A stretch of DNA of 64,000 nucleotides from Bythopirellula goksoeyrii (lineage in GTDB: Bacteria; Planctomycetota; Planctomycetia; Pirellulales; Lacipirellulaceae). A model generated the notes under the pieces. It worked only from the letters and a program-made list of their open reading frames with translations. It was not told the origin of the DNA and did not search any database. This document shows positions 52,888 through 63,738 of this stretch, piece by piece. The translations under genes were made by a program, and so were the position numbers. Within the stretch, counting starts at the first letter, position 1. Every line of letters starts with the position of its first letter. The stretch spans positions 4,847,257-4,911,256 of the forward strand of contig NZ_CP042913.1 in NCBI RefSeq assembly GCF_008065115.1. Direction: 5' to 3'.

Positions 52888-54486
52888 ATGTCTCAACTTT
52901 CCACCTTTCTTGCTAGCGCGGTGGTACTTCTTTCGACTGAGCTTGCGTCTGCACAACCCTATCAGGGCACTTCGCAATATTCAGTAGCCCCAGCAGCACT
53001 CTCGCTCGGACACGATTTTGATGCCAACGGCGACCTGACCTTCAAGTATCCAAATTCTGATCAGGAATTCCAACTCACAGCAGGGTGTACAGAGGAGTCA
53101 TGTGATTGTGGCGACACGGTAGGCTGCGGCGATGGAGTAAGCGGCAAGGGTGGCAAGAAACCCAATCCCTGTGCCGGTTCACATAAAGCTCTGTTCTACG
53201 ACAACGACTTCAACTACCTCAAGGACCCTTGCTACAAAGGGCATTGCTTGGGTGACTGCCTGAAACTCATGCCCGTGAGCCAGGACAATCGTTGGGGCAC
53301 ACTCGACATCGGTGGACAGCTGCGACTCCGCTACCACCATGAAGTCGGCATGGGACAGCAAGCGGGGGAAACTCGCTTTGAACCGACCACCAACGATTTC
53401 CTGCTCTCGCGCGTGAGGCTTTATAGTAACTGGCAAGTCAACGACCACCTCCGCTTCTATGTCGAAGGGATCGACGCCCAAGTTGCTGCCGCCAATTCAG
53501 CGTATATCCCTAGACCGATCGACCGCAACTTTGGCGATTTCCTCAATCTTTTCGTCGACCTCAAATTGCTCGAAAGCACGACGCTCCGCGTGGGTCGCCA
53601 GGAACTGTTGTACGGCAACCAGAGATTGATATCACCGCTCGATTGGGCAAACACTCGGCGCACCTTCGAAGGTGCCAAGGCAATGATTAAAGCGGGGGAC
53701 TGGGAGACCGACATATTCTACACTCACTATGTACCCGTAGTCCCCAACGAACTGGATGAGGCCGATTACAATCAGCCGTTTTATGGTTGCTACATGTCCT
53801 ATAGCGGGTTTGATAACTTCGTCGTCCAGCCCTTCTACATCGGCTACGACAACCAGAATCCCGCCGGTCCTGTCGCCGGTTCGGGCGATTTTTCGTTGCA
53901 TACCGTCGGTATGCGGGTCAATGGAGGGATCGACGATTGGCTCTTCGAGATGATTGGGGGGCCGCAGTTTGGACGCCAAAGCGCACTGGGTGTCGATCAA
54001 GATGCAGCATTCGGCACTTGCGGCATTGGGCGCAGCCTTGGTTCACAACTCCCCTGGTCACCAACCTTGTGGGGTTACTACGACTACGCCTCAGGCAACG
54101 CCCCCGGCGGTAGTTTCAACCAATTCAACCAACTGTTCCCCTTGGCACACAAATACCTCGGCTTTATCGACGCTGTGCAGAGGTCGAACATTCAGTCTCC
54201 CAATATCCTGCTTACCATGAAGCCAGCGGAAAAGCTCAGCTTGCTTTTTTGGTACTACCATTTCATGGCCAACCAGGCCGGCGACGTGGTCCCCTCAATC
54301 GGAGGCACCCCACCACAAAGTTTGACCAGTACCGACTTCGGTGACGAACTGGATGTGTTGGCCACCTACCAGTGGGGCCCTCGCTCAAATATCCTCTTCG
54401 GTTGGTCCCACTTCTGGCGCGGCGACAAAATCCTCGCCCCCACTGACGCGGACTTTTTCTATTCGCAGTGGGAATTGAATTTCTGA
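52888..54486 (+). CDS. Outer-membrane beta-barrel porin, alginate-export-like
   Basis: The protein has 532 residues. A signal peptide ends at about 22. A cysteine-rich segment, GCTEESCDCGDTVGCGDG..., is at about 70-130 and contains ten cysteines, with NPCAGSHKALFYDNDFNYLKDPC in it. From about 138 the sequence has alternating beta strands (GQLRLRYHHEVGM, RVRLYSNWQVNDHLRFYVE, TTLRVGRQELLYGNQRLISP) and ends with the aromatic outer-membrane signature WELNF. It resembles the alginate export family (AlgE). The substrate cannot be read; the context gives no sugar locus. Confidence 0.85.
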   Translation: MSQLSTFLASAVVLLSTELASAQPYQGTSQYSVAPAALSLGHDFDANGDLTFKYPNSDQEFQLTAGCTEESCDCGDTVGCGDGVSGKGGKKPNPCAGSHKALFYDNDFNYLKDPCYKGHCLGDCLKLMPVSQDNRWGTLDIGGQLRLRYHHEVGMGQQAGETRFEPTTNDFLLSRVRLYSNWQVNDHLRFYVEGIDAQVAAANSAYIPRPIDRNFGDFLNLFVDLKLLESTTLRVGRQELLYGNQRLISPLDWANTRRTFEGAKAMIKAGDWETDIFYTHYVPVVPNELDEADYNQPFYGCYMSYSGFDNFVVQPFYIGYDNQNPAGPVAGSGDFSLHTVGMRVNGGIDDWLFEMIGGPQFGRQSALGVDQDAAFGTCGIGRSLGSQLPWSPTLWGYYDYASGNAPGGSFNQFNQLFPLAHKYLGFIDAVQRSNIQSPNILLTMKPAEKLSLLFWYYHFMANQAGDVVPSIGGTPPQSLTSTDFGDELDVLATYQWGPRSNILFGWSHFWRGDKILAPTDADFFYSQWELNF

Positions 54487-55300: not shown

Positions 55301-56371
55301 CTACCTCTCCTTCCCCACGCTCAGCACCAACGACCGTGTCATTCCGACAAATGTCGTTAGCCAAGCGGCCAGCGCGAAGTAAATGAATCCTTGAGGAATG
55401 AATAGCAGGAACGGCAAATCGAGTGTGGTTGCTAGCCGATAGGTGCAAGCGGTGTACATGCCCAACGGGAAGACCCCACCCCAGTATTGGGGGTCGTAGG
55501 TGAGTCGAAACCGCATGTAGACGTGTCGCCAGATCCCGAGGATTATTAGCATCGGTATCCACGCCGTGGCCGTTGCCCAGAAGAAGAGCGTGAAACCTAT
55601 GAGAAACGGCAACAACTGAGTGAGGATCGCCGAACCGTCGGCTGCAGAAACCAGGACAATACCAGCCAGCGTCGAGATCGCCATCGCCCCCATGTTGATC
55701 CAATACGGCGGCGCGAGATCTGCTGGACTCATCGAGAAGAAGTTGTACCGATAGAAAATCAGCGAGATGATCCAGATGTAATGCATCCCACCACTGAGCC
55801 ACATCGCCAGCGAAAAGAATAAGACCTGCTCTCGATATTCGCCAAACCCATCGGCCAATAGACCTCCCAGAAGAGCCACCGATTGGGTAGCAACCACAGA
55901 GACGAGCCAACCGCCGTGGATTCCCTCAGGGAGTGTTGGCTTCTTTTCCTTCACAGCGAAGGCAGTGAAAATCGTGTAGTTCAACAGGAACCACAACACG
56001 ATCCCCAGACACCACAGCGCCACAGCGACGAAGCGCAATTGGCCGATGAGCAGGAACTGGTTTCCCAACACGCATGTGGCGGCGACCGTAGTGAAGAATC
56101 CCACTCCTCGCCTGTGGTCGACCAGGTCATTGAAAAACTTTCCTGGGAACATTGCCAGCCGCATAAAAGTGAGAGCCACCAATATCACATAGGCCCCGAT
56201 GTTGATCCAAAACAGCGTCTGCGCGATCCAGGGCATCTCGAGAAGTTGGCACGCAATGGAAACAATCCCGGTAGCCATTACCAGCGCAAAATAGACCGGA
56301 TTGAGCGTTGCCAGGTCTTCTTGAAAGGGAGACAAGCGCCCCTGCTGATTGTCCACGATCGCCTCGTTCAC
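55301..56371 (-). CDS. TDT/SLAC1 family anion transporter
   Basis: The product has 356 residues and ten hydrophobic helices. It begins at a GTG at 56371, because the first ATG is inside helix 1 ([18 protein letters not shown]). This opening with FALVMATGI, and [19 protein letters not shown] in the middle, match the tellurite-resistance/dicarboxylate transporter (TehA, Mae1, SLAC1) family. SLAC1 relatives are channels for nitrate, chloride and other anions. It follows the Rieske/4Fe-4S/molybdoenzyme genes by 18 bases and closes the operon, so it could import or export the enzyme's substrate or product. This role is inferred. Confidence 0.88.
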
Positions 56372-56389
56372 GGGTTACTCGATTCCCAT

Positions 56390-56614
56390 TCATTCATCTA
56401 ACGACACCAAATAGTACAGCAGACCGACATTAAGCAACAAGCAAGCAAGGCTGGCAATCGCGGCAGGCCACACAAAAGTTTCGTTGCCTCCCAAAAAAGC
56501 ATTCATCGTCGCCGTTAGCAGCCAAAGCTGCATCACAACGAGGAGCAACACGATGCAGAGAATGCCGTAGACAATTGCCAACCGTTGGCGTCGGGTATGC
56601 GAAGGATCGCTCAT
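56390..56614 (-). CDS. Small two-helix membrane protein (DUF6755-like)
   Basis: The product has 74 residues, with helices at about 13-36 and 47-70. It resembles short proteins I associate with molybdoenzyme clusters in planctomycetes (DUF6755), but this is from memory and not certain. The start overlaps the Rieske gene's stop (ATGA). It may help hold the electron-transfer complex in the membrane. Confidence 0.7.
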   Translation of the reverse strand: MSDPSHTRRQRLAIVYGILCIVLLLVVMQLWLLTATMNAFLGGNETFVWPAAIASLACLLLNVGLLYYLVSLDE

Positions 56615-57150
56615 GATGCACTTACCTCAATGTTGGTAGCGTAAATATTCCCTTTCGCGATTCGCAATTCGATCCGCGGCAAAGGCCTCCGGGGCGGTCC
56701 AGCCGTCGGTCGCCCCGTGGCGACATCAAAGAAGCCCCGATGGCAGGGGCAGTGTAAACGGTCGTTCTCCAGATCAGGCTGCACGGGACACATCAAATGC
56801 GTGCATTGACTGGAATAGGCCACGAAGTCGTCCTCAGACTTACGTATCAGCAGACAGGGATCGCGGTCAGTCGGGTAGTGAAAACTCATCGCTTCGCCGA
56901 CCGCGATGTCGTCTACCTTCGCAATCCGTTGCTCGCCCGGTTTGTAGCCTCGAAAGAATGTATGCAAAGCAATCCAAAATTGCCCGCAGACGAACGCCAA
57001 GCTGGTAAGCACCATAAACTTGGTAAAGTCCCGGCGGGCACCGTATTCATCTGCCTCGACTTCAATCGGAAAATCGCGTCTCCATTTCGGCTGTTCGCAC
57101 TCCGGACGACCATCGGGAAAACTGACTTTAGGGGCTTTATCGTGTTCCAT
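56611..57150 (-). CDS. Membrane-anchored Rieske [2Fe-2S] protein
   Basis: The 179-residue product has a basic N-terminus with ARRDFTKFMVLTSLAFVCGQFWIALHTFF at 38-66, a twin-arginine anchor helix like that of QcrA. The Rieske site is complete: SSQCTHLMCPVQ (C116, H118, C121) and LHCPCHRGFFD (C134, C136, H137), so ligands and the stabilising disulfide are both present, as in high-potential Rieske proteins of bc/b6f type. No cytochrome b of bc1 type is near. The domain would face the periplasm. It is encoded between the iron-sulfur gene and the small membrane-protein gene in the same operon. Confidence 0.95.
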   Translation of the reverse strand: MEHDKAPKVSFPDGRPECEQPKWRRDFPIEVEADEYGARRDFTKFMVLTSLAFVCGQFWIALHTFFRGYKPGEQRIAKVDDIAVGEAMSFHYPTDRDPCLLIRKSEDDFVAYSSQCTHLMCPVQPDLENDRLHCPCHRGFFDVATGRPTAGPPRRPLPRIELRIAKGNIYATNIEVSAS

Positions 57151-57167
57151 GGGTTAAGACTCTCTGA

Positions 57168-57815
57168 CTACGAGATTATCGGCAGTTCATACAGTGTGGC
57201 GGCCATCATGTCGTCGGCTTGCGGATCGTCGCCGCTGTCGAACATACCGTCGGTAACGTCAAGGTGGTTTACGGTCGCCTCGCGGGGAACCATCATGCGA
57301 ACCTTCGTATGAATCGTCTGTTCGCCAAATTTAAATTCGTTGATCGGCCGCGAACGGGGACGCAAGTCTGCAATCTGTTCGCGGGTACCAAAGAACAGGG
57401 CCTGACTGGGGCAAACCGTCGCACACATGGGCCGCTTCCCCTCCGAGGTACGGTCGTAGCACATGTCGCACTTCATCATCAGTTCCATATGGGTATCCAT
57501 CTTCGGAACTCCGAACGGACACGCCAGCACACAATTGTTGCAGGCGATACATCTTGGCTTTCGGGCCGTTTGCACAACGCCATCTTCGGTACGTTTGATC
57601 GCGTCGGCTGGGCAAACTTCGGCGCAGGTCGGCGAATCACAATGCATGCAAACCACCGGCAACGTCTGCGGCGATTCGCGCCGGTTCACGTACTCCAGAT
57701 GAATCATCGAGTGCCCTTTATGCGTATCACATTCCGAGCAGGCCTGCACACACGACTCGCAGCCGATGCAGCGATTTGGGTCGATGAAAAAGTATTTGGT
57801 ATCGGGAACAGGCAT
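57168..57815 (-). CDS. 4[4Fe-4S] ferredoxin-like electron-transfer subunit
   Basis: The 215-residue product has 16 cysteines in four clusters: C16-x2-C19-x2-C22-x3-C26, C56-x2-C59-x4-C64-x3-C68, C89-x2-C92-x2-C95-x3-C99 and C116-x2-C119-x11-C131-x3-C135. This is the DmsB/NrfC/PsrB pattern. There is no signal peptide, so it works on the same side as the molybdoenzyme, which also lacks one. It is six bases downstream of the catalytic-subunit gene and should carry electrons between that subunit and the membrane. Confidence 0.96.
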
Positions 57816-57821
57816 GCTAGG

Positions 57822-60071
57822 TCACGATTGTTGTGGTTCAAGTTGATCTGCATACTCAGGCGCGGCAGTCGCCTTCGCCAACCGTACGGCACACACTTTG
57901 TACTCAGGAATCTTTGAGATCGGATCTTGAGCAGAAATCGTCAGCCGATTCGCGCTCTTCACTCCCGCCCAGTGGTAGGGTACGAAGACCGTGTCAGGTC
58001 GAATCGTCTTCACGATTTGCGCCCTCACCGTGATCTCGCCGCGGCGTGACGCTACGGTAGTCCAGTCTCCCTCCTTGATGCCAAGCCGCTGGGCAAGCTG
58101 CGGATGGATCTCGACTCGTGGCTCAGGATACTGTTCCACTAGCGGTCCGATGCGCCGCGTCTGCGTGCCTGAGAGAAACTGGCTGACGACTCTTCCTGTG
58201 GTCAAGATGACTGGGAATTCGCTATCCACTTCTTCAGTCGGTGGCGTGTACTCGGCAACGTTGAATCGCGCCTTGCCATCCGGGAAGTAAAACGGACCGG
58301 CCACTTTGGCAATCGGATTGTCGCTGCAGAGCTCGAACAAGCGGGGCGTACCGGGGTGATCCTCCGAGGGGCAGGGCCAGCAGATGCCATAGTTCGCTTC
58401 GATCTTTTCCCAGGTAATCCCCGAATAGTCCGCCACGCCCCCCTTGCTTGCTCGTCGTAACTCGTCAAATATCTCGCGAGGATTTTGGAATGTCATTCCA
58501 TGCGTGCGACCTATTGCGGCTGCTATGTCCTGAATGATTCGCCAATCCTGCCGTGCATCTCCTGGGGGATCTACCGCCTTGTTGATCTTGATCACCTTCC
58601 CTTCAATCTGCGTGACCACTCCTTCATCTTCTTCCTGAAGAGAGCCCGGCAGCACGATGTCCGCATGGCGTGCCGTATCGTTGAGAAAGAAATCGATCGC
58701 CACATAAAAATCAAGTTTATCGAGCATCCGCTGAATGAAATTATTGTCTGGCAGCGACACCAGCGGATTGAAGCAGATCGAAATCAGCCCACGAATCTCA
58801 CCGCGCTCAATCTTGCGGAACATCTCATAACAATCCACACCTGGCTCTGGCAGATCGTCGGGGGAGACGTCCCACACCTTGGCCACATGAGCACGATGCT
58901 CGGGGTTGGCCAAATCTCGCGCACCAGGAAGCTGATCGCACTTCTGCCCATGTTCGCGGCCCCCCTGGCCATTGGCCTGACCAGTAATCGTGGCGTAACC
59001 GCAGTTCTCTCGTCCGATGCGCCCCGAGGCGAGTACGATGTTGATCGCCCCCAGCACATTCTGCACACCGTGGCTGTGATGTTCGATGCCTCGCGCGTGG
59101 GTCAGAAAGCTTGTCTTTGCTTGTCCCCACCACTCGGCTGCCTGGCGGATCGACTTCTCGGCGATACCTGTCACCTCAGCGGTACGGGCTGGAGTCCATT
59201 CGCGTACCGATTCTGCGAGTGCCTCGAAACCAATTGTGTGCTTTTCGATGAATTCGTGATCAAGCCAATCGTGCTCGATCATCAAATGCAGGATGCCGTT
59301 GAATAGGGCCACATCCCGCCCCGGTTTCACGGGCAGGAACAAATCGCAGGTGCGAGCAATCGGAGTAATCCGTGGATCGACGACGATGATCTTGGCGCCG
59401 TTCTCACGAGCTTGCCACACATAGTTCGTCGTAATCGGGGCGCACTCTGCGACATTTGCCCCGCTGATCCATACTACGTCAGCACCAAGCATGTCCGACC
59501 AGGGGTTGGCCGCCCGGTCGATGCCAAACGCCTTCTTGTTTCCTGCCCCAGCACTCACCATGCAGAGCCGACCGTTGTAGTCGATAAACGGCGTCTTCAG
59601 ACAAACCCGGGCGAACTTGCCCATCAGATAGGTCTTTTCTGTGGTCAGACTTGCACCGCTTAATACTCCCACTGCACCGTTGCCGTGCTCCGCTTGGATC
59701 TTCTGAATCGCATCGGCCGTGCGACGAATTGCCGCGATGTAGTCGATTGGACGAAATCCGCCGGGGGCATTCGGAGCGCGCTCTTGAGCACTAACCAAAC
59801 GATCTGGATGCGACCCTTGCAGATATCGCTTCACACCTTTTGGGCAAAGCATTCCCTGGTTGAAAGGAAATTCCTCCCAAGGTTCGAAACCGATAACCTC
59901 GTTGTCCTTCACTTTCAGCTGGATGCCACATTGCTGCCCACAAAAGCAGCAATGGGTTTTCACCAACCGATCCGGTTCGACACCCCGATCAAGCCGCGTC
60001 CCACTGGAAAACGCCAAATGGGGGCCGAATTGCTCAATGATGTCAAGTGTGGCGGTCGGTTGTTGGGCCAT
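57822..60071 (-). CDS. NapA/NarB-type molybdopterin oxidoreductase catalytic subunit
   Basis: From the ATG at 60071 the product has 749 residues; an ATG at 60155 is in frame but overlaps the upstream gene. The N-terminal [4Fe-4S] motif is C41-x2-C44-x3-C48-x27-C76. [21 protein letters not shown] contains C170, at the molybdenum-ligand position, where NapA and NarB also have cysteine. The bis-MGD blocks [38 protein letters not shown] and SGTQTRRIG are present. There is no Tat signal, so it is cytoplasmic, unlike NapA. Best guess is nitrate reductase; formate dehydrogenase-like activity cannot be ruled out. Confidence 0.93.
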
Positions 60072-60085
60072 GTGCTTATTCTCTC

Positions 60086-61153
60086 TTACGATTCGATCCG
60101 ACGCTCCGCATGCCAAAGCTGCCCCTGCGCCAATGCCAGCGAAACTCGACGACATTTGGGGCAGATCCGCTGATAGTGATCGCCGCGTGAATCATTCATT
60201 TCGTACTTGTATCCCAACTGCCGTTCAACCTCAATCAAATCATCAACCTGCATTTGAGAGGCGTACGGTTCTTTACACAGCGCACATGTTGCCTGAGCCC
60301 CTCGCGCTCCCGCGTCCTTGTAAAACAACACCCCCAATTGCGCCGGCCGCTGAAACAAGTGAAACAACTTGCCAAACGGCAACCAAAGCAACGTGAATAT
60401 TACCGTGGCTGCGTGCGTGATCGAGAGGAACTCGTAGGCGTACCCTTCGAGCCACTGGTAACTAACTACCAGCATGAGCCCCGTGATGCTCACGGCGAAG
60501 AGCAAAATCAACGGCAGGAAATCTTCGCCGAATCGCTGCAGTGCCAAGGCATCTCGGCCCCGCATGCGGCGACGCATGGCCAACATCACACCGGGGATAA
60601 CCAAGAATGAAGCCCAGACAAGTCCATGAAAGATCAAGAAACCAAGCGGGGAATCGACCGCGAAAGTAAAAGCAGGGAACCCGAATACATTTGCCTGGTA
60701 AAGATCGAATCGATCACCGACAAATTCGAAATGAACCCACCCGAACACCAGTGGGAAGGTAATCGCCGCTGCGAGCAGACAGCCCCACATCACAAGCCAA
60801 TGTGCCGCCCCCCGAGAAATCCCTCGCCGCCAAATAAAACTGTTAGCGAAGAAAACCGAAACCATCCGCCGTACCCATAGCCAAAAGTTTCGCGGCAGGT
60901 CCTTGGGATTCAAAAACACTTGCCAGCCACGCTTCCAATACATGGCCGTCGGCGGACGCTGTAGCCACATCGCGTAGCGATAAGTGATTCCAAAGACGGC
61001 AAACAGACTGGCGAAGGTGTATCCGACCAGAGCCGCATCAAAATGCGACAACCGCCGAGACCCGAGCATGATCAGACCTACCAGTAAAAGGGTCGCCACC
61101 AACCCGCTCAAGCCGGCTTTAATTGACTCCCGAGGAAAGGCGTGAGGCTTCAT
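60086..61153 (-). CDS. NarI/DsrM-like membrane cytochrome b candidate with zinc-ribbon tail
   Basis: From the ATG at 61153 the product has 355 residues; ATG 61162 and GTG 61201 are also in frame. It has about five or six transmembrane helices. Histidines in [34 protein letters not shown] and [26 protein letters not shown] could bind two b-type haems as in NarI, HdrE or DsrM; THAA...[15 protein letters not shown] is especially NarI-like. The cytoplasmic C-terminus has CALCKE and ICPKCRR, four cysteines that may bind zinc or an Fe-S cluster. It is the first gene of the operon, probably the quinol-interacting subunit. Confidence 0.8.
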
Positions 61154-61307
61154 GCGTTGCATCCGAATGGAGAATGGAAGACTGGGAGGCACTTTTAGCA
61201 CGAATGCATGCCTTTTCCCACTCCCTGGTTGCCACCCAATCTACGACTCGCTATAAAGGATGTAAAGGTCCTTTTGTCTGTTTATTGAAATCCCCTGCAA
61301 AACGCCT
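61154..61307. promoter_or_regulatory. Divergent control region of the molybdoenzyme operon and Rrf2 gene
   Basis: The 154 bases carry promoters in both directions. AAAGG-T-CCTTT (61264-61274) is a small palindrome 33 bases before the Rrf2 start, with a second AAAGGA just upstream, and is the best candidate operator. I could not define -35/-10 boxes. Confidence 0.4.
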
Positions 61308-61814
61308 ATGTTTTCCCAAACTGTCGAATATGCCCTGCGGGCTATTGTCACGATTGCCCAACACGATGGCCAACCGCGCACGGCCCAGCAGATCTCCAAA
61401 CTCGCCCAGGTTCCGGGTCCCTATCTTTCGAAGATGATGCAAGGGCTCGCGCGTTCGGGACTCGTCAATTCTCAGCGAGGCCTGCACGGGGGGTTTGTCC
61501 TCGCCAAAGCGGCCAAGGAACTGACTGTCTGGGAAGTAATGGAGGCGGTCGACCCCATGCAACGAATCCATGTTTGCCCGCTCGGCCTCAAGTCCCACGC
61601 CAAAACGCTCTGCCCGCTGCATCGGCGCCTCGACAACGCGATGGCCCATGTCGAAGAACAATTCAAGAACACCACCATCGCCGAACTGCTCTCCGAACCA
61701 GGCAGCGTCACACCTCTCTGCGAGCAGCAGCAAGTGATGAATATCGACACTTGCCACGCCGTCAAGAAATCACCGGGTGACCGTCACGCCAGCAAGACTG
61801 CGGTCACGAAATAA
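61308..61814 (+). CDS. Rrf2 family transcriptional regulator
   Basis: The product has 168 residues. FSQTVEYALRAIVTIAQ is the Rrf2 opening, SKLAQVPGPYLSKMMQGLARSGLVNSQRG the winged helix. Cysteines at C90 (HVCPLGL), C102 (TLCPLHR) and C138 could bind an Fe-S cluster as in NsrR, IscR or RsrR, but the spacing (C-x11-C) is wider than in NsrR. By position it controls the divergent molybdoenzyme operon and perhaps the two haem-protein genes downstream. Nitric oxide, redox or iron could be the signal. Confidence 0.93.
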   Translation: MFSQTVEYALRAIVTIAQHDGQPRTAQQISKLAQVPGPYLSKMMQGLARSGLVNSQRGLHGGFVLAKAAKELTVWEVMEAVDPMQRIHVCPLGLKSHAKTLCPLHRRLDNAMAHVEEQFKNTTIAELLSEPGSVTPLCEQQQVMNIDTCHAVKKSPGDRHASKTAVTK

Positions 61815-61854: not shown

Positions 61855-63177
61855 ATGGTATCTCCACCCACAAGTATCAACCTTCGGATTGCAATATTCT
61901 CCGCTTTGTCGGCAGCAACGCTACTGTTTACATGTGGACCAGTCAGCGCCCAGATAGACTTCGAACGCCCCCCGATCAACTATTCTACAGCCACACCAGA
62001 CAATCCTGTGTCGCGTTTGCAAGCTCGCTTGGATAGCGGCGAGGTAGAATTAACCTACGACGAAAATCGTGGCTACCTGGCATCGGTACTTGAACAACTG
62101 GGTATTTCACCCTCATCACAGATGCTTGTTTTCTCCAAAACGAGCTTCCAACCTCAGAAAATATCTCCGCGCCGACCTCGTGCCGTCTATTTTGGCGAAG
62201 ATGCCTATGTGGGCTGGGTTCAAAGGGGAGACGTGCTAGAAATCTCGACGGTAGACCCTCAGTTGGGTGCAGTCTTCTATACTCTGGAACAGAAGGCGGC
62301 AGCGAAACCGACTCTTGTACAAGACCGAGGGCAATGCATCGTCTGCCACGCATCTTCACGTACCGCCGATGTGCCAGGGCATCTGGTGCGCTCGGTCTAC
62401 CCTGCCCCGTCAGGCCAGCCGTATTTTGGTGCTGGGACTTTCACGACCGACGATCGCAGTCCCTTTCACGAACGATGGGGGGGCTGGTATGTCACCGGCA
62501 CCCACGGCAAGGAACGGCACATGGGCAACGTCGTAGTGCAAGGCAAAGACGATCCAGAAGAACTTGATCGAGAGGCGGGAGCCAACGTCACCGACCTCAG
62601 CGAACTGCTAAACACCTCCCCCTATTTAGCTTCTCACAGCGATATTGTGGCGTTGATGGTCCTAGAGCATCAGACAAGGATGCACAACCTCATCACCCGC
62701 GCTAATTTCGAAACGCGTGCTGCCTGCCACTACGACCGCATCATGAACAAGGCCTTGGAGCGCCCACTCGACCAACGCAGCGAATCGACCGAGCGCAGAA
62801 TCGCTGCCGTGGTCGAAAAGCTGATCGATGGCCTATTGTTTGTCGACGAATATCCCTTGAATGATCCCATCGAAGGGAGCTCGACATTTTCTCAAGAATT
62901 TTCCGAAATTGGCCCGCAAGATTCTCAGGGCAGATCACTCCGCCAGCTTGATCTCTCTCAGAGGTTGATGAAGTATCCCTGCAGTTATCTGATCTATTCC
63001 GAGCCGTTTGCAGGAATTCCTGTCGCAACACAAGAACAAATCTACCGCCGTTTGTACGACATCCTGAGCGGTACCGATACGAACGAAAAGTATGCTCACC
63101 TAACTTCTGCCGACCGCCGAGCGATTCTCGAAATCCTGCGGGAAACCAAAACCGATTTACCCGATTACTGGAAATAG
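61855..63177 (+). CDS. Secreted single-haem c-type protein, unknown function
   Basis: The product has 440 residues. Residues 1-32 are a signal peptide ending GPVSA. C161-I-V-C164-H165 is the only c-haem motif. A conserved-looking block, SPFHERWGGWYVTGTHGKERHMGNVV, follows the haem site and is rich in His, Trp and Gly. A CHYDR motif near 290 has a lone cysteine-histidine pair. The remaining C-terminal part is helical. I do not recognise a characterised family. It starts 40 bases after the Rrf2 gene and is followed 18 bases later by another haem-protein gene, so all three are probably cotranscribed. Confidence 0.8.
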   Translation: MVSPPTSINLRIAIFSALSAATLLFTCGPVSAQIDFERPPINYSTATPDNPVSRLQARLDSGEVELTYDENRGYLASVLEQLGISPSSQMLVFSKTSFQPQKISPRRPRAVYFGEDAYVGWVQRGDVLEISTVDPQLGAVFYTLEQKAAAKPTLVQDRGQCIVCHASSRTADVPGHLVRSVYPAPSGQPYFGAGTFTTDDRSPFHERWGGWYVTGTHGKERHMGNVVVQGKDDPEELDREAGANVTDLSELLNTSPYLASHSDIVALMVLEHQTRMHNLITRANFETRAACHYDRIMNKALERPLDQRSESTERRIAAVVEKLIDGLLFVDEYPLNDPIEGSSTFSQEFSEIGPQDSQGRSLRQLDLSQRLMKYPCSYLIYSEPFAGIPVATQEQIYRRLYDILSGTDTNEKYAHLTSADRRAILEILRETKTDLPDYWK

Positions 63178-63195: not shown

Positions 63196-63738
63196 ATGAA
63201 AACTGTGTTAGCGCCTGCTCTCTGCCTGACAATTACCCTGGCGATCTCTCTGGCCTTGGCCACTGAGAAGGAACAACCCATTGCCAACTCGAGTGACAAC
63301 GCCTCGCCAGCAGCTGTCGAGCAAGCCAGGGAGACTGTCGCCATGCTGGACAACATCTACAAGCAGGTGATTGTCCTGATCACCGATAAATACGTTCACG
63401 ATACCGACGATTTCGCAGCCGGCAGCGCGGCTGTCCTGCTGTTCAAGAACATCTCTGAGAACGGTTCCCATACAGTGCGGCTGATCGACGCCACCGGCGA
63501 ACCCTACAACCCGGACAACATCGCGGGCGACGACTTCGAGCGTGAAGCCCTCAAGCAAATCAAGGCTGGCAAGCAGACCTACGACCAAGTCGAGGCCAAA
63601 GATGGCAAACAGTTCTTACGATCCATGACCCCGGTACCTGTCGTCATGGAGCGCTGCATCATGTGCCACGACCACTATGGAGACGTAGAAAAGGGCGAAC
63701 CCATCGGCGCGATCAGCTACACGATTCCGCTGGAGTGA
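63196..63738 (+). CDS. Tll0287-like (DUF3365) haem-binding protein
   Basis: The product has 180 residues, with AAGGAAC before the ATG. A signal peptide is at about 1-22. The domain shows DGKQFLRSMTPVPVVMERCIMCHDHYGD with the haem motif C154-I-M-C-H158, and ends EPIGAISYTIPLE, the typical DUF3365 ending. The fold is PAS-like with a c-type haem near the C-terminus, as in Tll0287 and in redox-sensing histidine kinases. Here it is a free-standing secreted domain. It may sense redox or gas, or pass electrons to the neighbouring haem protein. Confidence 0.9.
   Translation: MKTVLAPALCLTITLAISLALATEKEQPIANSSDNASPAAVEQARETVAMLDNIYKQVIVLITDKYVHDTDDFAAGSAAVLLFKNISENGSHTVRLIDATGEPYNPDNIAGDDFEREALKQIKAGKQTYDQVEAKDGKQFLRSMTPVPVVMERCIMCHDHYGDVEKGEPIGAISYTIPLE

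Follow-up and report, generated by a model that had tools for sequence, protein, structure and literature searches.

What kind of enzyme is assembled when a molybdenum oxidoreductase is encoded beside both a NarI-like membrane protein and a Rieske protein, and on which side of the membrane would it act? The question is raised by a locus of the planctomycete Bythopirellula goksoeyrii, within a stretch of 64,000 nucleotides (contig NZ_CP042913.1, positions 4,847,257 to 4,911,256, hereafter the window), where a preliminary description had placed a six-gene, nitrate reductase-like complex on the minus strand at 55301-61201. All six open reading frames (ORFs) were confirmed, together with the families, cysteine motifs and Rieske ligands that had been assigned to them:

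60086 to 61201, minus strand: NarI-like membrane subunit (P0005), with about six transmembrane (TM) helices, four invariant His and a C-terminal HycF-like CxxC-x37-CPxC domain
57822 to 60071, minus strand: catalytic subunit of Nas type, 749 amino acids (aa), of the molybdenum bis(pyranopterin guanine dinucleotide) (Mo-bisPGD) kind, with [4Fe-4S] ligands C41, C44, C48 and C76, Mo ligand C170 followed by Met, and no signal peptide seen
57168 to 57815, minus strand: FdnH/HycB/DmsB-like Fe-S subunit carrying four [4Fe-4S] motifs; no TM helix seen
56611 to 57150, minus strand: Rieske [2Fe-2S] protein anchored by a twin-arginine translocation (Tat) signal, structure closest to AioB
56390 to 56614, minus strand: small membrane protein of 74 aa, DUF6755 (PF20540) by Pfam match
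55301 to 56371, minus strand: SLAC1/TDT anion channel; elsewhere a NarK-type transporter can fill this slot

On balance we favor the reading that these genes encode a membrane-bound nitrate reductase in which a catalytic subunit of the Nas line is coupled to a NarI-type cytochrome and a HycB-like protein, with a Rieske protein on the outer face, and which would have a dissimilatory role in the window genome. The gene set, its conservation, its clade, its ligands and its linkages are read from sequence; the reading built on them rests on sequence and predicted models. Pfam and NCBIfam profiles assign proteins 2-6 of the operon to molybdopterin oxidoreductase domains, Fer4 domains, Rieske, DUF6755 and SLAC1, respectively; in the same search the NarI-like protein matched no Pfam family and gave a weak QmoC match only. 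Neither NapB nor NarJ is among the six genes. The catalytic gene more likely starts at ATG 60071 than at 60155, because an ORF beginning at 60155 runs into the end of the NarI-like gene, and the NarI-like gene itself probably starts at ATG 61153 rather than at GTG 61201.

Conservation and spread of the gene set

Scanning genome contigs for the catalytic protein identified at least 40 loci. Identity is 67-84% in 38 and 30% in the other two, and the count is a lower bound given that the scan used a few peptide patterns of this protein and reaches close relatives only. By their record titles, the 38 close orthologous loci are mostly from Planctomycetota (metagenome-assembled genomes, MAGs, with unchecked labels), the other labels being Gemmatimonadota, Vicinamibacterales (Acidobacteriota), Caldilineaceae (Chloroflexota), Polyangiaceae (Myxococcota), Bacteroidales (Bacteroidota), Latescibacterota and "Cyanobacteria". 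The catalytic protein is also found, at about 55% identity, on four Deinococcus plasmids; the three plasmid loci examined have the same arrangement and end in a NarK-type nitrate transporter gene. The recurring order is NarI-like, Mo, Fe-S, Rieske, DUF6755 and transporter, with the Fe-S-to-transporter part inverted in one locus (L024). Kept in some 40 genomes, this order excludes a chance arrangement and bears out the proposal of a nitrate reductase-like complex conserved as a unit.

The Rieske gene, whose absence from the locus in other genomes would have spoken against its membership, is linked in all 38 loci with a contig reaching it (33 scan loci, the window, G105 and three Deinococcus loci; L019, L025, L044, L053 and L054 end before it), and it is present in four further relatives, L083-L086. 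It also adjoins DUF6755 in 12 of the 13 planctomycete genomes with a DUF6755 match; the exception, G221, scores below the cut-off, has no other module gene within 5 kb and is probably a false match. Since just 13 of 392 planctomycete genomes have DUF6755 (12 with scores above the cut-off), and the 11 other same-order genomes among those listed lack it, the module is patchily distributed. Many module genomes are closely related and incomplete, so co-occurrence counts are not independent; L020 and L032 derive from one MAG. A search for the module Rieske protein in phages gave no match. L022, L038 and L052 share a conserved ORF of about 133 aa between their NarI-like and Mo genes; in L026 and L028 it is found downstream of the module.

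A catalytic subunit of the Nas line

Across the ortholog rows that cover them (38 to 41 for each), the cysteines C41, C44, C48, C76 and C170 do not vary, with C170 kept in 41/41 (rows below 60% of length were excluded from residue counts). The best NCBIfam match is NasC (NF047855), at 772.6 bits with a cut-off of 1100, and the alpha subunit of formate dehydrogenase (FDH) comes second (572.3 bits, cut-off 666). The NarG profile TIGR01580 scores 61.9 bits against a cut-off of 1084, and the protein has neither the length (about 1200 aa) nor the Asp Mo ligand of NarG; the NAPA profile reaches 256 bits against 930, and the protein is not a Tat-exported NapA. That the catalytic subunit lacks a signal peptide also holds beyond the window, for no Tat-like signal precedes the first cluster motif in the 38 rows inspected by eye. 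An RR pair does occur somewhere in the inspected N-terminal stretch in 15/38 rows, mostly upstream of the likely start and with no hydrophobic stretch.

The phylogeny set in advance as a test against characterized non-nitrate families places the subunit among nitrate reductases, not FDHs. In a midpoint-rooted tree of 54 rows, several of whose outside rows are long-branched by the program's own warning, the module rows (32 plus three from Deinococcus) form a single clade with support of 100/100; truncated rows (L043, L044, L047, L048, L050, L053 and L054) were left out. The fork joining this clade to a group of six rows is supported at 100/100 and the group itself at 98/93. That group holds Nas proteins with annotated nirB alongside from Mycobacterium, Paenibacillus and Deinococcus aquaticus, plus three unannotated rows; NapA and proteobacterial Nas come next and the FDHs lie outside. 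A second tree of 34 rows, including L083-L086, again returned the module clade at 100/100, leaving the Paenibacillus row unresolved. By sequence, then, the subunit is its own clade beside the Gram-positive-type assimilatory nitrate reductases.

The active site agrees. At the Escherichia coli FdhF columns Sec140-His141 and Arg333, compared over 17 rows, five module rows read Cys-Met and Thr, the same as eight Nas/Nap-type rows, while the four FDH-type rows keep the Arg and have Sec/Cys-His, or Cys-Gln in one; a TGQ motif is common to the module subunit and Nas/Nap in this comparison. The placement in the Nas clade is thus matched by Nas active-site motifs, and an identity as FDH, which requires His141 and Arg333, is ruled out by these columns together with the tree. 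Nor is the subunit an AioA, a protein given as having no amino-acid Mo ligand in an excerpt of PMC10100899, because C170 is present in 41/41 rows.

The subunit also departs from Nas as usually understood, that is, a soluble enzyme fed by NADH or ferredoxin and encoded in an operon with nitrite reductase: it has membrane partners instead, and no nirBD lies in the window.

Nitrate as the most likely substrate

What the enzyme acts on is best judged from the genes that travel with it. In the 36 loci reaching it, the gene after DUF6755 is of SLAC1/TDT type in 25 and of NarK type in 11, never both and never neither. The base is 43 loci (the window, G105 or L081, L019-L056, and the Deinococcus loci L060-L062), from which two contig ends (L031 and L032) and the five loci ending before the Rieske gene were removed. 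NarK-type genes were counted if on the same strand and at most 2.5 kb downstream, and were called from TIGR00886 (200-274 bits in the five scanned, cut-off 311.7), tblastn to those five, or the public annotation for Deinococcus. A tally of all rows gives 33 TDT, 12 NarK, four contig ends and three with none, and takes in the short clips L004-L018, with several duplicating other loci. Two of the three "none" clips have NarK-type genes elsewhere, divergent in L083 and upstream in L085; the third is L013. A CLC-type channel with a CBS domain follows the module SLAC1 gene in L023 (14836-16626).

In L083 the genes for nirB (1151 bits, cut-off 578), nirD (120, cut-off 75), NarI-like, Mo, Fe-S and Rieske proteins stand on one strand with ends touching or overlapping, and the divergent NarK is over its cut-off (318 bits). 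In L084 a NirA-like/NirB-like hybrid protein (328 and 301 bits, both below cut-offs) is encoded directly upstream and a NarK-type gene downstream. That the module adjoins genes for a nitrate transporter and a cytoplasmic nitrite reductase is the best evidence that nitrite would be made from nitrate inside the cell. On these sequence grounds the substrate is very likely nitrate, and its reduction probably takes place in the cytoplasm.

The suggestion of "nitrate or another oxyanion" therefore stands in its first half, while the second is unlikely in view of the NarK-type transporters and the nirBD linkage. A role with formate, arsenite or chlorate/selenate, or in nitrite oxidation, seems to us highly improbable: the below-cut-off NasC score does mark a diverged clade, but the FDH residues are absent, the Mo-ligand Cys is present, unlike in AioA, and the nitrate transporter and nitrite reductase linkage speaks against it.

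The membrane subunit and its HycF-like tail

Four histidines of the NarI-like subunit, H134, H192, H263 and H281 counted from the GTG (H118, H176, H247 and H265 from ATG 61153, used below), are invariant in 35/35 rows. In a VIA-align comparison, an AlphaFold2 model built from 27 rows (26 of 32 available plus the window protein; pLDDT 84.1, pTM 0.71) comes closest to EtfD (Z 11.5), followed by eight NarI entries at Z 10.0-10.3 (rmsd 4.6-5.2, 175-190 aligned residues; next row 6.1), values in a range, below about 13, that by the tool's warning can mean a common helical-bundle arrangement. A low-probability hhalign alignment sets NarI H187/H205 on H247/H265 of the model, spanning a shared PFxx motif. 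Loop charges, over segments picked from the model, predict loops 65-111 and 195-205 to be cytoplasmic, likewise the C-terminal tail. From model and topology, an inner pair (H118 and H265) and an outer pair (H176 and H247) would form two bis-His sites. The subunit looks like a NarI-fold dihaem cytochrome b, and the catalytic subunit is likely tied to it. In L060-L062, on the Deinococcus plasmids, its gene is publicly annotated as "MFS transporter", which hides the complex.

The C-terminal tail has a different relative. For model residues 285-341 the match is HycF of formate hydrogenlyase (FHL), in its C-terminal domain (Z 6.0, rmsd 1.3 over 52 residues, 25% identity); phmmer points to the same stretch (E 0.62), and when aligned directly the two score 76, where 300 shuffles reach 53 at most. 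A CxxC-x35-45-CPxC motif is present in 36/38 rows, the remaining two (L025 and L029) having early-ending frames. In E. coli FHL the HycF quartet, CxxC-x34-CPxC, holds a metal ion that is tentatively assigned as iron, and the domain touches HycB near FdhF, according to an excerpt of PMC9474812. Because of this contact, and because the module Fe-S protein is itself HycB-like, the tail is probably a dock for the Fe-S and Mo subunits. The 16 cluster cysteines of that protein, and C29, are invariant in the 39 or 40 covering rows; its best Protein Data Bank match is FdnH (1kqf_B, E 1.1e-23), with HycB among the next (7z0s_B, E 6e-20).

The Rieske protein and the side of catalysis

Across 38/38 rows there is no variation in the Rieske ligands C116, H118, C134 and H137, in the additional pair C121/C136 or in the twin arginines R39R40, which upholds the Tat-type assignment. 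A model from 23 rows (22 of 32 available plus the window protein; pLDDT 86.2) has its best structural match in arsenite oxidase AioB (Z 16.7-17.6 over nine entries; next kind 14.9). AioB is also the best NCBIfam profile, at 60.5 bits below a cut-off of 95.65, and comes first in phmmer, nearly tied with a Thermus Rieske protein. As modelled, this is a Rieske subunit of AioB type.

The description of this center as high-potential appears doubtful. Where Rieske proteins of bc1 type have Ser and Tyr, the module has Gly139 (38/38 rows) and Phe141 (23/23 rows); hydrogen bonds from this Ser and Tyr are held, in an excerpt of PMC3758308, to raise the bc1 Rieske potential towards +300 mV, and the same source gives AioB potentials of +130 to +225 mV and one AioB in which a Phe-to-Tyr change was without effect. 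With both tuning positions replaced and the AioB range below that of bc1, the potential is more likely to be middle or low than high, which would suit menaquinol.

The likeness to AioB raises a further alternative. AioAB is exported by Tat hitchhiking, and the Mo and Fe-S subunits of the module might likewise leave the cell on the Rieske signal, so that nitrate would be reduced in the periplasm with the Rieske protein feeding the Mo subunit directly. The closeness to AioB and the invariant twin arginines speak for this arrangement, as does haloarchaeal pNar, which works outside with a Rieske/cytochrome b complex (PMC8400030, PMC4683180, both in excerpt). We nevertheless consider it distinctly unlikely, with a NarK-type or SLAC1 gene in 36/36 informative loci, the nirBD co-operon of L083, Nas relatives that are cytoplasmic, and the HycF-like dock on the side that loop charges predict to be cytoplasmic. 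The same haloarchaeal system, as given in those excerpts, corrects the premise that neither Nar nor Nap enzymes normally have a Rieske subunit, since pNar is encoded with such a complex.

Proposed electron path

Combining these results, we propose that a catalytic subunit descended from the cytoplasmic, assimilatory Nas line would be fed as follows. Electrons from (mena)quinol, a donor suggested by the fold, would enter at the outer side of the NarI-type dihaem cytochrome b; the two b haems would pass them to the HycB-like four-cluster protein seated on the cytoplasmic HycF-like tail, and from there they would reach the N-terminal [4Fe-4S] cluster and the Mo center, where nitrate would be reduced to nitrite in the cytoplasm. 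The SLAC1 channel, or its NarK-type counterpart elsewhere, may bring nitrate in and/or let nitrite out. The AioB-type Rieske protein on the outer face would add, next to the quinol site, a second place for electron transfer. In this scheme the haems, the quinol site, sidedness, direction and the role of the Rieske protein are what we infer.

A bolder variant is Q-cycle-like: electrons from quinol at the outer site would be split, one passing by the b haems to cytoplasmic nitrate and the other by the Rieske protein to a periplasmic cytochrome c, or, in reverse, cytochrome c would feed the Rieske protein. We regard this as rather doubtful; if true, it would carry the idea of cytochrome bc1 over to a NarI fold within a nitrate reductase. 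A link between nitrate reduction and a Rieske complex has some precedent, because a Streptomyces nitrate reductase is reported, in an excerpt of PMC7931247, to depend on the bcc-aa3 supercomplex.

Respiration or assimilation

Would the nitrite made by the module serve respiration or biosynthesis? PF00384 matches two further genes of the window genome, one NasA-like and one YdeP-like. The NasA-like gene, which reaches no NCBIfam cut-off, lies in a cluster at 5.486-5.502 Mb (L078) that also holds genes for an Fe-S/DmsC fusion and for a NirB-NirD fusion that passes its cut-offs, and a NarK-like gene scoring slightly below its own; with its Fe-S/DmsC partner, the NasA-like protein is possibly a second quinol-linked nitrate reductase. 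NrfH (over cut-off) and NrfA (by Pfam) are also encoded, and a profile search of this genome found no NarG or NapA over cut-offs. Assimilation seems already covered and a periplasmic nitrite reductase available; because the separate Nas-NirBD cluster covers assimilation, the role of the module in the window genome is most likely dissimilatory, with nitrite passing to NrfAH.

The co-occurrence of NrfA is uneven. Among 39 module genomes, NrfA is found at E<=1e-20 in 23, as compared with 101/392 in the phylum sample. NarG is over its cut-off in three, NirK in three and NirB in six, and NapA is strong but below cut-off in three; at just 3/39 each, NirK and NarG were dropped as co-occurring partners. 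One clustered family of RIC (Fe-S repair) occurs in the flanks of L019, L022, L024, L049 and L054 (over cut-off in L049), NnrS in the flank of L045, and Rrf2 genes in the fetched flanks of six module loci, hints of nitrite and NO metabolism.

Alternatively, the same enzyme might be assimilatory, a quinol-driven nitrate reductase feeding a cytoplasmic siroheme nitrite reductase, and this we hold to be possible, if not what we would expect. It is supported by L083, where nirB-nirD stands directly upstream in one operon and the catalytic protein is nested in the main module clade (89/89 in the 34-row tree), by the L084 hybrid, by annotated nirB beside three of the six neighboring-clade rows, and by NirB in 5/13 DUF6755 genomes (4/12 without G221) vs 43/392 in the phylum sample; the NasA-like gene of the window genome, too, adjoins a membrane fusion. 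Over the module genomes, however, the six NirB of 39 are near the phylum rate (NirB counted, not NirA), the window genome has its other Nas-NirBD cluster, and NO-stress genes such as RIC and NnrS lie near some module loci. It is plausible that the enzyme is respiratory in the window genome and assimilatory in some relatives.

Several points weigh against the membrane-bound, dissimilatory enzyme that we favor, beginning with the helical-bundle warning above. Foldseek of the membrane model listed no NarI chain among its best 50 matches, most of them GPCRs at poor TM-scores, an order that VIA-align changed, and the hhalign probability against a single NarI sequence was 1.9%; by model and topology, one outer haem ligand would apparently come from a neighboring helix, replacing NarI H66. 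An AioB-type Rieske protein normally docks on a periplasmic Mo subunit. The nirBD co-operon of L083, nested in the main clade, favors assimilation there. NrfA is found in only 4/13 DUF6755 genomes of the phylum sample (4/12 without G221) vs 101/392 overall, so that NrfA coupling is not upheld as proof of respiration. Finally, 10/39 module genomes (e.g., G398, G414 and G397) hold frames of 1150-1214 aa with weak narG matches, perhaps other or diverged NarG/NxrA-type enzymes.

Neighboring genes in the window

Upstream of the operon three genes are read in the opposite direction:

61308 to 61814, plus strand: Rrf2-family regulator, divergent, a candidate operon regulator
61855 to 63177, plus strand: putative monohaem c protein (CIVCH), 440 aa, no Pfam/NCBIfam family match
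63196 to 63738, plus strand: Tll0287-like haem c protein (CIMCH), adjoining the putative monohaem c protein

The 440-aa protein adjoins the module in L025 and L049 too, and the Tll0287-like protein is found in L049 as well. Downstream of the operon, on the opposite strand, an Alginate_exp family protein is encoded at 52888-54486. A palindrome search upstream of the operon returned one short overlapping palindrome, nothing usable. Operon GC of 0.53-0.56, vs 0.50-0.56 in the surroundings, is no anomaly, and the idea of a foreign island by composition was set aside.

Relation to known enzymes

The module resembles several known systems without coinciding with any of them. With Nas/NarB/NasC it shares the catalytic family, the Cys-Met and TGQ motifs, a neighboring clade and probably a cytoplasmic setting; the known Nas electron donors are NADH or ferredoxin/flavodoxin proteins, whereas the module partners are a membrane cytochrome, a four-cluster protein and a Rieske protein. 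With NarGHI it would share the NarI-like fold predicted for its membrane subunit, with four conserved His, a probably cytoplasmic active site and a multi-cluster Fe-S bridge, but the module catalytic subunit is not NarG (749 aa, Cys ligand), no NarJ is among the six genes, the Rieske protein and the HycF-like tail are extra, and one haem ligand is apparently on another helix. The FdhF-HycB-HycF arm of E. coli FHL offers the Mo superfamily of FdhF, a HycB-like Fe-S subunit and the four-Cys domain of HycF; the module differs in fusing that domain to a NarI-type cytochrome, in lacking the formate residues and in having no hydrogenase. Arsenite oxidase AioAB likewise sets a Rieske protein with a Tat signal beside a Mo enzyme, but the module has a Mo-Cys ligand, a separate four-cluster subunit and a Rieske Gly where AioB has Ser/Thr. 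Haloarchaeal pNar, again a nitrate reductase encoded with a Rieske protein and cytochrome b, has an outside, NarG-type active site, while that of the module is Nas-type, with no exported NarG-type subunit, and its cytochrome is NarI-like.

In the literature searched, which mostly leaves out subscription journals and preprints, we recognized no description of the six-gene set, so that a prior description is possible, and no paper there mentions DUF6755. If our reading is right, the module would be a further nitrate reductase architecture, present in several phyla and easily missed by surveys with narGHI profiles, such as those used for Phycisphaerae (PMC11266412, in excerpt). It would also qualify the statement, in an excerpt of PMC10100899, that NasC/NasA homologs serve nitrate assimilation exclusively. 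DUF6755 would gain a likely setting. The module is open to testing, being carried by Deinococcus strains, and would, if the reading is true, represent a natural system in which a Rieske center meets a NarI-type cytochrome.

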